Assembly: GCF_001677435.1 (NCBI RefSeq)
Contig: NZ_CP016268.1
Coordinates: 981,001 to 1,045,000 of the forward strand
DNA length: 64,000 nt
Source: Woeseia oceani
GTDB lineage: Bacteria; Pseudomonadota; Gammaproteobacteria; Steroidobacterales; Woeseiaceae
Direction of reading: 5' to 3'
The notes under the pieces were generated by a model. That model was not told the DNA's origin. It ran no database searches and worked only from the letters and a program-made list of their open reading frames with translations. Position numbers and translations under genes: made by a program. Shown piece after piece: positions 25,799 through 29,753 of this stretch. Numbering within the stretch: position 1 is the first letter of the stretch; the number at the start of each line of letters is the position of its first letter.

Positions 25799-26407
25799 GT
25801 GAACAAGTTTTCGAGCGACGCCGCGGCAGTTGTATTGATTCTGGCGCTGGCGGCTGGCCTGTCATCGGCACAAGAGCCAGCGGAGACTGTTGAGTCGGCA
25901 CTTACCGAGAGCAGGGTGTTGGTCAAGCGCTTTGCCGACGAGTTGCAAACCGCCCTGATTAACGCGATGGCCGAGGGCGGGCCGCAACGGGCAATCACGG
26001 TCTGCAAAGACATTGCACCGGAAATAGCCTCGCGATTATCACGTGAGTCGGGCGCGGCCGTTGGCCGTACCAGTCTGCGCTTGCGCAACCCGCAAAACCT
26101 GCCGCGCGAGTGGCAGGAGCCGGTACTGCAGGATTTTGACGCGAAAGCGGCGGCCGGCAGTGAGGCGTTGGCACTCGATCATTTCAGCGCTGCCGACAAC
26201 AGCAATGGTGCGCGTTACATGAAGGCCATACCAACGGGCGGGCTGTGCCTGGCCTGTCATGGCACTGAGCTGGCACCGGAAGTACGTGAGCTGCTGAATA
26301 CGCAGTACCCGCACGATCGTGCGACCGGCTACACCACCGGTGAGGTTCGCGGTGCGTTCAGTGTGGTTTGGCCGCGGGAAGAGGATGTGAAGGCGATCAG
26401 TGAGTGA
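25799..26407 (+). CDS. DUF3365 (Tll0287-like) periplasmic haem protein
   Basis: 202 residues from a GTG at 25799, preferred because AAGGGAG lies 6 bp upstream and a signal peptide (VVLILALAAGLSSAQ) follows at once; a frame open to 25775 adds eight charged residues. The haem-c motif is CLACH near residue 153. RSLRN-like and RAITVCKDIAPEIA blocks match DUF3365 proteins, PAS-like periplasmic domains that bind c-type haem. It lies 36 bp after the DUF2892 gene and is probably co-transcribed, suggesting redox or gas sensing, or electron transfer, in the sulfide response. Confidence 0.85.
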   Translation: MNKFSSDAAAVVLILALAAGLSSAQEPAETVESALTESRVLVKRFADELQTALINAMAEGGPQRAITVCKDIAPEIASRLSRESGAAVGRTSLRLRNPQNLPREWQEPVLQDFDAKAAAGSEALALDHFSAADNSNGARYMKAIPTGGLCLACHGTELAPEVRELLNTQYPHDRATGYTTGEVRGAFSVVWPREEDVKAISE

Positions 26408-26625
26408 CGGGTTCTTGCCAAAACTGGTGAGAAACCGCTGAGCGATTGCACAGCGCCTGTACAGTTCTGAGCATTACAATGGAGTGAACCGCCGGGCCGG
26501 GCATAGCCATCTCGCGCAGAATATTGGTGTTTCACTGTTTGTAATTCACGGCGAGCAGGTTAGACTCCGCCTTCGTCTGGCACAGGTGCCAGCCGACATT
26601 CGGCAATCGCCGATGGACAGATAAT

Positions 26626-26702
26626 GCGCCCGTAGCTCAGCTGGATAGAGTACCTGGCTTCGAACCAGGTGGTCGGAGGTTCGAATCCTTCCGGGCGCGC
26701 CA
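26626..26702 (+). tRNA. tRNA-Arg (anticodon TCG)
   Basis: 77 nt with encoded CCA. Acceptor arms GCGCCCG and CGGGCGC pair; the D-arm starts TAGCTCAGCTGGATAGAG; the anticodon stem CCTGG/CCAGG encloses loop CTTCGAA, giving anticodon TCG (reads CGA); the T-arm is GGAGG TTCGAAT CCTTC with the standard TTCGA. Its last 19 nt recur downstream as the start of each 178-bp repeat. Confidence 0.97.
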
Positions 26703-27345
26703 AATATAAAAGGGTCCCCAACGGGGGCCCTTTTTTATTTGCGGTATCGACAAGGTTCGAAGCTCATGCGGCCCGAAGGGCCGCCGGTTCGACAAACAGG
26801 CGCAGCCTGTTTGGACGCGCGCAGCGCGCCCGAAGGGCAAGTCGCCGCTGGCGACGCCGTCAATCCTTCCGGGCGCGCCAAATATAAAAGGGTCCCCAAC
26901 GGGGGCCCTTTTTTATTTGCGGTATCGACAAGGTTCGAAGCTCATGCGGCCCGAAGGGCCGCCGGTTCGACAAACAGGCGCAGCCTGTTTGGACGCGCGC
27001 AGCGCGCCCGAAGGGCAAGTCGCCGCTGGCGACGCCGTCAATCCTTCCGGGCGCGCCAAATAAAACAGGGTCCCCAACGGGGGCCCTTTTTATTTGCGGT
27101 ATCGACATGGTTCGAAGCTCATGCGGCCCGCAGGGCCGCCGGTTCGACAAACAGGCGTAGCCTGTTTGGACGCGCGTAGCGCGCCCGCAGGGCAAGTCGC
27201 CGCAGGCGACGCCGTCAATCCTTCCGGGCGCGCCAAATAAAACAGGGTCCCCAACGGGGGCCCTTTTTTATTTGCGGTATCGACAAGGTTCGAAGCTCAT
27301 GCGGCCCGCAGGACCGCCGGTTCGACAATGGGGCGCAGCCTGTCC
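26684..27345 (+). repeat. 178-bp tandem repeat array carrying the tRNA 3' end (about 3.7 copies)
   Basis: Units start at 26684, 26862, 27040 and 27217 (lengths 178, 178, 177, then about 129 before divergence). Each starts with the last 19 nt of tRNA-Arg including CCA, then a terminator hairpin with a T-run, then a chain of hairpins with 3-nt loops. In unit 1 these lie at 26768-26784, 26793-26813, 26816-26828, 26828-26838 and 26841-26855. Units 1 and 2 are identical. Unit 3 differs in all five loops while the stems stay intact. Unit 4 breaks off after GGTTCGACAA. No protein-coding signal is credible because 178 is not a multiple of three. Confidence 0.95.
26708..26737 (+). terminator. Rho-independent terminator after tRNA-Arg
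   Basis: GGGTCCCC, loop AAC, GGGGGCCC (one T-G wobble), preceded by A-rich and followed by TTTTTT. The same element returns in each repeat unit near 26886-26915, 27066-27093 and 27243-27272. Confidence 0.92.
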
Positions 27346-27636
27346 CGACAGGCAACAATCGGAGGGCAGTTGTACAGTAAATTGTTGTCGCAACTTACGT
27401 TATCGATCTGCATTATCGGCGGCCAATATTTGTTAGCCCGGCCGTTAGGGCATACAGATAATTCGCGGATGTACTTGGCTGTATATTCTTGACGTGTCTT
27501 GCGCTCTATCTTCGAGCTATTCGATGATCCGGATTCGCACCATCTTCTGGAGTTGCTGTGTCGAGTCGAACACGCCGGCAGCCAGCAACTCGTGTCGAGA
27601 TAACCGTCCTAGTTAGTCACCATCTAACGTCTTCGC

Positions 27637-28605
27637 TTATTCTTCGCGCAGGGTGGGCCGCGATAGACCCACGGTAAGCTTTTCTCCCAGTACTTCACGG
27701 CGAAAGCGAAATAATTCAGCGGGTCGGCCGCGACCTACCGCTACCGTGCGACCGATAGCCTCGACCAGATCCGCGTTCATGACCAGACGGCGAAAGTTTT
27801 GCTTGTGAAGGTGTGCGCCACTCAAAGCTTCGGCAACCTGTTGTAACTGGAACAAGGTAAACTCGCCTGGCAGTAATTCGAAAACCACCGGGCGATATGC
27901 AAGTTTGCCGCGAATGCGTCCCAGCGCCGTAGCCAGAACCCTCCGGTGGTCGCAGCTCATTGGCACACCGATATCTGTGGGTAGGGGAGCCAAGGGTTCA
28001 TTGGCCAAAATGCGAGTGTCACGGTCGGACTCAGCCAGAATGCCCGAGTCGTAAAGTAGCTCGAGGCGTTCGAGCGTGAGGACCGCGTCCAATTCTGCGG
28101 CTCCGGGGTAACCGAAACTGACATTGACCCGCTCAGTCCGCTTGTGCTTGATTTCCCGCTTCGAAGTACGTGAGCACCATTTCTTGAGGCGCGGCTCAAC
28201 TATTGTATCCAGCATTGCCGGACGACCATCGCGCCAATCTTCCCACGGCAGGTGCTCATACAAGTCAACCCAGCGAGTTCCGCCTGTCAGTAACTCCTCT
28301 TCGTGGGCGAGAGCTACGTAGGCTACCGACAGTGTGCGAGGTCCTCCTCGCATTTCGTCCTCGGTTCTGTATCGGTTGCCAAACGTGTAGAGCTGTTCTA
28401 CGTAATTCAGATCGAGCCCGGCTTGAGCTTCGATCATTCGCCGAAATCCTTCTTCCAGACTGGCGTTCGCCTTCGGGTCGAACGGGCCGCTGGGGAGTGC
28501 TCTGTCATGGCCGCCGTCGGCAACCAGGATGCGCGGTATCTGGTCTGTTACGGCGACTATAACGCCGAGCAGATTGACGACAGTGTCAGCTTGGGTAGTG
28601 GTCAT
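27637..28605 (-). CDS. nrtR: NrtR-type regulator of NAD metabolism
   Basis: 322 residues: an N-terminal Nudix-like domain (residues about 8-150) fused to a C-terminal winged helix (about 165-250 and beyond). The Nudix box region (NASLEEGFRRMIEAQAGL) lacks the full REUxEE catalytic set, as usual in NrtR, where the domain senses ADP-ribose or related metabolites instead of hydrolysing them. The helix-turn-helix part contains FTLFQLQQVAEALSGAHLHKQNFRR, a strong NrtR hallmark when read as separate halves. It diverges from nadA with two palindromic boxes between them, so it should repress nadA and itself. Confidence 0.88.
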   Translation of the reverse strand: MTTTQADTVVNLLGVIVAVTDQIPRILVADGGHDRALPSGPFDPKANASLEEGFRRMIEAQAGLDLNYVEQLYTFGNRYRTEDEMRGGPRTLSVAYVALAHEEELLTGGTRWVDLYEHLPWEDWRDGRPAMLDTIVEPRLKKWCSRTSKREIKHKRTERVNVSFGYPGAAELDAVLTLERLELLYDSGILAESDRDTRILANEPLAPLPTDIGVPMSCDHRRVLATALGRIRGKLAYRPVVFELLPGEFTLFQLQQVAEALSGAHLHKQNFRRLVMNADLVEAIGRTVAVGRGRPAELFRFRREVLGEKLTVGLSRPTLREE

Positions 28606-28704: not shown

Positions 28705-28721
28705 AATTGACCAGGTGCATT

Positions 28722-29753
28722 ATGCCAAGCAATCACACTACAGAGATGGTTCGAAACAAGGTGGCGCCGCTGTACGAACGCGTCAAGAAGTTTATTCCCG
28801 AAATGGAATGGCCCGTTCATGCCGACCACATTGCAGCGATCAATCAACTCAAGAAGTCTCGCAATGCGGTAATCCTTGCGCATAATTATCAGACTCCGGA
28901 AATTTTCCACTGTGTCGCCGATATCACCGGTGATTCCCTTGCACTGGCTCAGCGCGCGGTTGATACAGACGCGGATGTTATTGTCCTCGCCGGCGTTCAC
29001 TTCATGGCCGAAACTGCCAAGCTTCTGAACCCTGGCAAGACTGTACTCATGCCTGATCTCAATGCGGGCTGTTCGCTTGCAGATTCGATCACAGCCGCCG
29101 ACGTGCGCAAACTTCGCGAGCAATACCCGGGTGTGCCTGTCGTTACTTACGTAAATACCTCCGCCGAAGTGAAGGCGGAGTGCGACATCTGTTGTACTTC
29201 CGGCAATGCCGTTGCCATCGTGGAATCGCTGGGAAGCGACAAGGTCATCTTCGTGCCCGATGAGTACCTTGCCGCCTACGTTGCAGAGCACACCGACGTT
29301 GAGATTATTAGCTGGAAAGGACATTGCGAAGTGCACGAGCGATTTACGGCAGCTGAGATTGACTCATTTCGAGAAGGGCATGCCGGCCTGAAAGTAATCG
29401 CTCACCCCGAATGTCCGCCTGACGTTTTGGCCTCTGCCGATTTCGTTGGCTCCACCGCGCAAATGCAGGATTATGTGGTTAATGAACGCCCCGACAAGGT
29501 CTTGATGCTCACAGAGTGCTCCATGAGCGATAACGTGTCGATCAGCGTAGAGGACGTGGAGTTCATTCGCCCCTGCAATCTATGTCCGCACATGAAGCGC
29601 ATCACCCTGGCGAATATTCAGCAATCACTGGAAACACTCACGCCGGCCGTCGAAATTGACGAGTCGGTGGCGATTCGGGCGCGCGCTGCTGTGGAACGGA
29701 TGCTGGCTGTGGGTCGGTCTCAGTTGACTAAAGTTGCTGCTTTGTCCGGCTGA
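28722..29753 (+). CDS. nadA: Quinolinate synthase
   Basis: 343 residues. The start at 28722 has AGGTG upstream; a TTG-initiated extension to 28707 is not needed. Family marks are [26 protein letters not shown], and three cysteine regions that hold the 4Fe-4S cluster: [17 protein letters not shown] and CNLCPHM. NadA condenses iminoaspartate with dihydroxyacetone phosphate to quinolinate, the first committed pyridine-ring step of NAD synthesis. nadB and nadC are not in this window. Control by the adjacent nrtR through the two boxes is expected. Confidence 0.96.

Follow-up and report, generated by a model that had tools for sequence, protein, structure and literature searches.

A tandem array behind tRNA-Arg(TCG) in Woeseia oceani as a member of the TLR family known from Escherichia coli

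What kind of element copies the end of a tRNA gene again and again behind that gene, and does such an array in Woeseia oceani share more than its appearance with the one behind the tyrT locus of E. coli? The question is raised by a locus in the window, the 64,000-nucleotide stretch of the W. oceani genome analysed here. A tRNA-Arg(TCG) gene with encoded CCA (26626–26702, plus strand; found by ARAGORN, 69.6 bits with the Rfam tRNA model) is followed on the same strand by repeats for which Tandem Repeats Finder reported a single array at 26684–27343, with a period of 178, 3.7 copies, 96% matches and a score of 1208. Together with the alignment, this gave four units. Unit 1 (26684–26861, 178 bp) starts with the tRNA's own last 19 nt, unit 2 (26862–27039, 178 bp) is identical to it, unit 3 (27040–27216, 177 bp) is 95% identical to unit 1, and unit 4 (27217–27343) is a 127-bp stump, broken off inside the hairpin core described below, with 94% identity over its 127 bp. 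The 19-nt tRNA-end core, AATCCTTCCGGGCGCGCCA, is identical in all four units, the copies lying at 26862–26880, 27040–27058 and 27217–27235. Intrinsic terminators were found by pattern match on the plus strand at 26708–26734 (serving the tRNA and unit 1), 26886–26912 (unit 2), 27067–27087 (unit 3) and 27244–27264 (unit 4); these four terminator-like hairpins, one per unit, compare with a mean of 1.6 (sd 1.2) in shuffled sequences. The original prediction had placed the four unit starts exactly and had each unit open with the last 19 nt of the tRNA and its CCA ahead of a terminator, and both points were borne out; its spacing of 178 bp applies to the first two intervals, whereas the third is 177 bp. 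An assembly duplication as the source of the array was judged unlikely, because separate arrays are present in many genomes and in E. coli MG1655.

The stretch 26300–27700 showed no sigma-70-like promoter. The array is flanked by a Tll0287-like ORF, whose end is at 26407, a minus-strand ORF (27637–28605) that encodes an NrtR-type DNA-binding domain, and NadA (28707–29753, plus strand; Pfam PF02445, 381.8 bits). The NadA gene lies 3' of the array with the NrtR-like regulator between them, and E. coli nadA likewise lies 3' of the TLR-bearing lysT operon, a shared neighbourhood that is possibly a coincidence.

Across arrays, the units follow one order: the tRNA core, a terminator, an inverted copy of the tRNA end, GGTTCGA, a core of about 70 nt with four hairpins, AATC, and the next tRNA core. 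GGTTCGA is the 5' half of a T-arm, and the hairpin core occupies the place of the T-loop; units of tRNA-Phe resemble almost complete pseudo-tRNAs whose T-loop holds the hairpin core. A covariance model of the unit core, R1, was built from 24 core sequences without E. coli rows (the seed row labelled L020b is the sequence of L115). At E≤0.01 its search gave 109 matches, spread over 82 sources. At least four of the matches are opposite-strand readings of palindromic copies, and the 109 together, again without E. coli rows, formed a second model, R2. Scored with both models, the latter cited second, the four-hairpin cores of the window lie on the plus strand at 26787–26865 in unit 1 and 26965–27043 in unit 2 (68.4 and 73.7 bits each) and at 27142–27220 in unit 3 (66.7 and 73.1 bits), one row of unit 1 being part of the R1 seed. 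In unit 1 the core sits in the T-loop between GTTCGA and AATC (R2 match at G000:C1:1007787).

The core structure was assessed on the R1 alignment of 102 distinct rows, in which identical rows were counted once and which includes several contig-derived loci that duplicate genome-survey loci (e.g. L114/L020 and L129/L012). Paired bases filled 92.4% of 2044 cells, compared with 66.6% in column shuffles and 39–48% with sliding partners, and two-sided changes were seen in 504 cells against 136 in column shuffles; as the alignment was fitted to the structure, the pairing and two-sided counts lean towards it. G-U pairs were rare, making up 29 of about 1889 paired cells, and folding gave 58 of 1693 pairs in core hairpins. 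For terminators the figure was 52 of 1007, and for the duplexes (P1) that the inverted copy can form with the following tRNA core, leaving a 3' CCA overhang, it was 126 of 846. P1 is rich in wobbles, though duplex folding itself favours them. The scarcity of G-U pairs in the core fits better with DNA palindromes than with a slowly evolving RNA, and points to palindromes maintained at the DNA level or to rapid replacement of hairpins. A strict RNA reading from G-U wobbles was rejected, since the wobble data give no support for upkeep of the core at the RNA level.

The inverted copy is often degenerate and is weak in the window. Its duplex energy was lower than that of shuffles, with z<−2, in 28 of 68 units (six of 74 having been left out for want of a recognised core start), and in the window's units it was not beyond shuffles (z of −1.1 and −0.4). 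For the P2 partner strand, an automatic scan was confounded by G-T pairs and terminators, and a plain motif count was used instead; GAGAA occurred in 37 and TCGAA in 31 of 106 rows, with one row carrying both, against 4.3 and 3.2 in shuffles.

The relation to E. coli could be addressed with the two models. E. coli K-12 carries 22 copies of the tRNA-linked repeats (TLRs) at ten loci, with 18–19 bp of the upstream tRNA or rRNA 3' end (PMC8144298, which cites Egan and Landy 1978 and Rudd 1999 for TLRs in E. coli). In E. coli MG1655, units of 178 bp with 19-nt tRNA-end cores lie behind tyrV and are matched by the Rfam RtT model, and in this the resemblance to tyrT put forward in the original prediction is real. 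The agreement in period and in length of the tRNA end is correct, but the coincidence of 178 with 178 is nothing special, the median period over the 104 loci surveyed below being 174. On the tyrT locus, the four top R1 matches were these units and one between tyrT and tyrV, at 14.0–18.8 bits, and at E≤0.01 R1 had no match there, although the locus was among the sources searched. With R2, run with filters off over nine E. coli regions (24.5 kb), the four tyrT/tyrV units scored 25.8–32.0 bits, and the best match was RrB behind rrfB (50.7 bits, E 4.9e-12). Five, one and three matches were found at lysT, lysV and the arg loci, at E 1.6e-5 to 0.0099; several of those at lysT and arg begin in the tRNA's own T-arm. 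At metZWV, glyVXY, leuQPV, argX-proM and alaWX nothing better than E 1 appeared (one match, in the glyVXY region).

Rfam family membership was tried as a route to identification and discarded: besides tRNA, 32 matches at E≤10 were all under the gathering scores of their families. The RtT model (RF00391) gave no match in 26600–27500 of the window even at E≤10, so its gathering score was not reached. This null result would suit a convergent origin, which the original prediction had named as a possibility; tyrT and the window array would then have come to look alike by chance through a constraint on tRNA trailers. The same Rfam model, in contrast, reached its cut-off at the lysT operon and, beyond E. 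coli, at the two loci L207 and L213, while missing it at RrB and at most of the 20 sources scanned, and R1 and R2 recovered E. coli TLRs, the tyrT units included, from alignments without E. coli rows. Convergence is therefore rejected and, in our judgement, hardly credible. By these sequence models, the window array and E. coli tyrT are one family, the TLRs. The interval between the two terminators T1 and T2 of E. coli rrnB (L216 534–615), with GGA in its first and last hairpins, is likewise a typical member of it.

The window array is one of several in the genome of W. oceani, a single contig of 4.06 Mb with 42 tRNA genes. When about 1.5 kb was scanned after each, five of the 42 were followed by copies of their own 3' end, which is more than chance. 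Besides the Arg-TCG array (period 178 bp, core 19 nt), these are a Phe-GAA array (period 183, core 19 nt), an Asn-GTT array (L033, G000:C1:2186272-2188000; period 179, core 25 nt) and two Met-CAT arrays at 2773700-2775424 (L044) and 2240400-2242167 (L049), one with periods 176/177 and one with periods 180/179, both with 25-nt cores. In the Asn-GTT array and both Met-CAT arrays the insert differs from that of the others (it reads about CTGAAGATCAATC..GATTG); it is of a second type, in which R2 found no match. A second Arg locus (G000:C1:3068704-3069036) consists of a decapitated tRNA-Arg, with only the 3' part left, and two units, the second of which matched over 155 of 178 bases. Three further core matches lie upstream of tRNA-Ser(GGA) (L146, G000:C1:2340336-2340741), where two identical units are made of the 5' half of tRNA-Ser with the hairpin core in the anticodon loop, and a third has a different left side. 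In total, all nine R2 core matches in this genome are at tRNA genes or at a tRNA fragment.

Outside W. oceani, the R2 core was present in 129 of 274 genomes of an even sample of the class Gammaproteobacteria and in 55 of 200 of a Pseudomonadota sample (both at E≤1e-4). When one genome per species was searched for a tandem pattern of Arg ends in which the second copy does not belong to a tRNA, 59 stretches came up, by title mostly Gammaproteobacteria or subgroups of it, some given as Proteobacteria only and one as Oligoflexia. On reading, L121, L132 and L138 were left out as not of this type; the two oddest titles, Desulfobulbaceae and Hakubella, were among the stretches dropped as another type. 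Over 104 distinct tRNA loci with arrays, those of E. coli among them, the median period was 174 (quartiles 164–182), with periods limited to 95–260 and many of the Arg loci coming from a pattern that allowed about 160–190. The tRNA-end core measured 18–19 nt in 100 of the 104. Eleven tRNA isotypes carried arrays, namely Arg, Ser, Lys, Tyr, Met, Glu, Gln, Asn, Phe, Val and Pro, with Arg over-represented because it was searched for. In three loci (L075, L081 and L214), the copied 3' end of the arrays or cores resembles that of tmRNA. In a search of the open literature, neither TLRs beyond enteric bacteria nor GGA loops in TLRs behind tRNA genes were found described. As far as found, the breadth of TLRs across Pseudomonadota is new relative to the open literature.

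In the 30 best-scoring loci, taken one per genome from the best-ranked genomes, 27 had a tRNA within 250 nt, in 26 cases upstream of the core, and none of the listed tRNAs had the reverse orientation relative to the core. L167, L175 and L190, which lack a tRNA gene, have an end that reads, by eye, as a tRNA 3' end with CCA. Among 20 loci picked from the phylum search, a tRNA gene was in view in 12 and absent from view in eight. The fixed orientation bears on the reading of the element as selfish DNA, a mobile multi-palindrome of the REP or MITE kind that enters hairpin loops, chiefly the T-loop of spare tRNA ends, and leaves arrays, through insertion and unequal crossing over, as by-products with no RNA function. 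Several observations speak for this. The core stems are almost purely Watson-Crick. One relative, G026, holds dispersed, SINE-like copies (L147, G026:C7; L148, G026:C33) in which a tRNA-Phe 3' fragment down to CCA carries the core in its T-loop; by reading, its dispersed cores occur in either orientation, and their neighbours are transporter, metabolic and regulatory genes (Pfam). Two such copies exist in G012. Cores also sit in the D loop (L077) and the anticodon loop (L146) of partial tRNAs, head to tail, and inside other hairpins, as in five dispersed cores of G026 (L066–L070) whose outer stems vary and yet, by eye, stay partly self-complementary. Moreover, a tRNA-Glu(CTC) array (L083, G001:C227) contains tRNA-Arg cores, which we read as a sign of exchange between tRNA loci. 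On the other hand, random insertion would not leave the 30 best loci without a single listed tRNA opposite to the core, the hairpin-specific GGA loops described below have no obvious role in DNA, and the W. oceani genome showed neither a match to the Y1 (RAYT) transposase PF01797 nor a dispersed copy among its nine core matches. A link of the core to RAYT/Y1 was rejected, as Y1 matches occurred in six of eight genomes, with none in G000 (W. oceani) and G390. In G338, which has 23 core matches, none of the three that were read had a tRNA in view. The sequences thus suggest that the core element can spread in some lineages, while a purely selfish origin of the arrays is somewhat unlikely. The mobile organisation raised in the original prediction finds its counterpart in the mixing across loci and the dispersed copies of relatives; it does not describe W. 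oceani, where all nine cores stay with tRNA genes or a tRNA fragment.

The tRNA ends might instead be scars of integrative elements, the 19-nt cores being copies of the attachment sites of elements that integrated at a tRNA 3' end and then shrank. The 18–25 nt at the 3' end of a tRNA are a usual target of integrases, and some arrays have a different terminator, or none, after the last core. In G012 (L161, G012:C96:6879-9856), two tRNA-Phe 3' ends with cores lie about 2.9 kb apart in the same orientation and enclose an ORF whose product has the AbiEii toxin domain of type IV toxin-antitoxin systems, an arrangement that resembles a cassette between direct repeats. This origin is nevertheless quite improbable, in view of the same core at 11 amino-acid types of tRNA and of the absence of a Pfam integrase among 24 ORFs around dispersed copies in relatives, a scan that covered the longer ORFs there. 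Of these 24 ORFs, 20 are from G026, where nested islands at tRNA-Phe had been considered.

The loops of the core carry a recurrent motif. Within the loop or its two closing pairs, GGA was present in the first hairpin of 23 of 29 folded loci, in the last hairpin of 24 and in both of 23, while only 4 of 50 middle hairpins had it. These loci are the top R2 scorers of 30, L193 being left out because it folded into two hairpins, and four of them, including the locus of the window (L179, with L169, L186 and L187), overlap rows of the models. Because R2 could favour such loops, the count was repeated on Arg arrays chosen by the tRNA core alone, with 45 Arg units that had a recognised start and at least three hairpins. 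Among those with titles other than Woeseia or Woeseiaceae, GGA was found in the first hairpin of 19 of 37, in the last of 17, in both of 15 and in 2 of 68 middle hairpins, and none of the eight units titled Woeseiaceae had GGA in an outer loop; the split follows record titles, so that some MAGs in the larger group may belong to Woeseiaceae. With loci taken as independent, Fisher tests gave 3e-15 (29 loci) and 1e-10 (Arg arrays). On the R1 alignment, the first-hairpin loop region held GGA in 32 of 102 rows, the last in 35 and both in 27. As far as found, the presence of GGA in the outer-hairpin loops of TLRs, as read from these folds, is also new relative to the open literature.

GGA in a hairpin loop is a signature of CsrA binding. 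In vitro binding has been demonstrated for E. coli RrB, whose first and last hairpins carry GGA, and it is clearly reduced when three of the five GGA, among them the two loop motifs, are changed (PMC8144298). Many last-hairpin loops resemble the CsrB repeat CAGGA(U/A/C)G or the selected CsrA consensus RUACARGGAUGU (PMC7652899), for example ACAGGGATGT in L169. Very stable stems may disfavour CsrA binding according to the same source, and the stems of the TLR core hairpins are long. Not all members have the motif. Of 11 folded matches from E. coli tRNA operons, none had GGA in both the first and the last hairpin and one had it in the first; the 2021 study gives a CsrA-binding probability below 0.01 for all 19 tRNA-operon TLRs and calls RrA, RrB and RrF unique among TLRs (PMC8144298). 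In the window, GGA is absent from the outer loops of the three full Arg units (by alignment, unit 1 also folded as L179), whereas the Ser-GGA units of the same genome include two identical copies with GGA in the first and last hairpins (from the sequence, two of three units being folded). We infer that units of the GGA type may bind CsrA, and that the window's Arg RNA probably no longer does so, because its outer GGA loops are absent.

W. oceani has a csrA gene (G000:C1:3084989-3085144, 89.5 bits). The presence of csrA was considered as a test of the GGA loops and set aside as uninformative, since 26 of 28 and 28 of 31 genomes have the gene, with absences mostly in incomplete assemblies. In several genomes (G026:C6:65539-66391, G068:C114:74393-75141 and G017:C10:1943-3064) a csrA gene and tRNA-linked cores are no more than a few hundred bases apart, and E. 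coli csrA adjoins serV-argVYZQ with its TLRs.

The repetition of a terminator in every unit admits another account, in which the array was selected for ending transcription past a strong gene for a stable RNA, and the remainder of each unit would be filler. In the window, all four tRNA-end copies lead into a terminator-like hairpin, as do many of the units listed for relatives. Minimum-energy folds of the E. coli tyrT units, however, have no strong hairpin right after the core, and the covarying four-hairpin core and the tRNA-end copies are left unexplained; we regard this account as unlikely.

Starting from the observed layout, family identity, tRNA link, orientation, core structure and loop motif, we consider the window array to be, with good probability, a TLR array of three whole units and the stump of a structured element that is reached only by terminator read-through. 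Some tRNA transcripts would read through a terminator, as shown for the E. coli rrn TLRs (PMC8144298). Processing of the tRNA 3' end would then cut at each CCA and release the unit RNA. The release of an RNA from each unit, which the original prediction had allowed for, is plausible in view of E. coli RttR, whose annotated end falls at the CCA of the second core. GGA presented by the two outer hairpins, whose loop motif was computed, could titrate CsrA in much of the family, with binding extrapolated from RrB; the GGA-less Arg array of the window would be at most a stack of terminators. A strong terminator before every unit should starve the later units, which would make tandem copies a poor device for raising RNA dose. 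The number of units may change by recombination between the direct repeats. TLR copy number is described as variable in E. coli, and annotated RtT copies under the best place ranged from none to six among 50 of 5391 E. coli records listed, where a place showing no copy may cover only part of the locus. A comparison of Salmonella serovars in a table of PMC2658671 seems to include a VNTR in rtT RNA.

A more tentative proposal, possible rather than probable in our estimation, is that tRNA-linked repeats are Pseudomonadota-wide CsrA sponges of tRNA operons, with four hairpins, two GGA loops and release by tail processing, which would couple free CsrA to tRNA transcription. RrA, RrB and RrF would then be survivors, and tyrT and the window's Arg array derivatives that lost GGA.

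The array in the window is, taken by itself, a further member of a family already known from E. coli. The survey indicates one TLR family across Pseudomonadota, with a fixed orientation to tRNA genes in the best-scoring loci, and the CsrA-type loops in 23 of the 29 best-scoring loci turn a curiosity known since 1978 into a direct question of binding. CsrA binding by TLRs, if true, would link tRNA output to a global regulator. By the 2021 study, TLRs had no known function before it, and only three rRNA TLRs were judged likely CsrA binders (PMC8144298).

Compared with known systems, the TLRs share with REP/BIME elements and their RAYT that they are short multi-palindromic repeats, dispersed in some genomes (PMC2817692), but the cores in the window's genome are bound to tRNAs and without a Y1 transposase match. 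Like the CsrA antagonists of the CsrB/CsrC type, they have GGA in hairpin loops, in the two outer loops per unit in most of the 29 loci. CsrB has 22 GGA (PMC7652899), however, against about two loop sites per TLR unit plus the tRNA 3' end, and the surroundings of the window's array, in contrast to this type, yielded no promoter-like site. With RtT/RttR of tyrT, the array shares 178-bp units, a 19-nt core, an inverted core that pairs with the core, a CCCGAAGGG hairpin and a putative RNA end at CCA, as annotated for RttR; it differs in that a strong hairpin directly after the core is missing from the minimum-energy folds of the tyrT units. RrA, RrB and RrF, located between the two terminators of rrnA, rrnB and rrnD, have the same succession of gene end, T1, structured RNA, 3'-end copy and T2, but consist of one unit only, stand behind 5S rRNA and have been shown to bind CsrA and Hfq (PMC8144298). 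That study, as far as its text was available, describes conservation of TLRs for Enterobacteriales and for rrn members only. The closest relation is to the TLRs of E. coli K-12 as a whole: both lie directly behind a tRNA or rRNA gene, both copy 18–19 bp of its 3' end (19 nt in all window copies), both have one to five units per locus, and both show the four-hairpin core by R2 at the loci tested, while the window array stands apart in its host lineage, in its tRNA and in the terminator that it carries in every unit.
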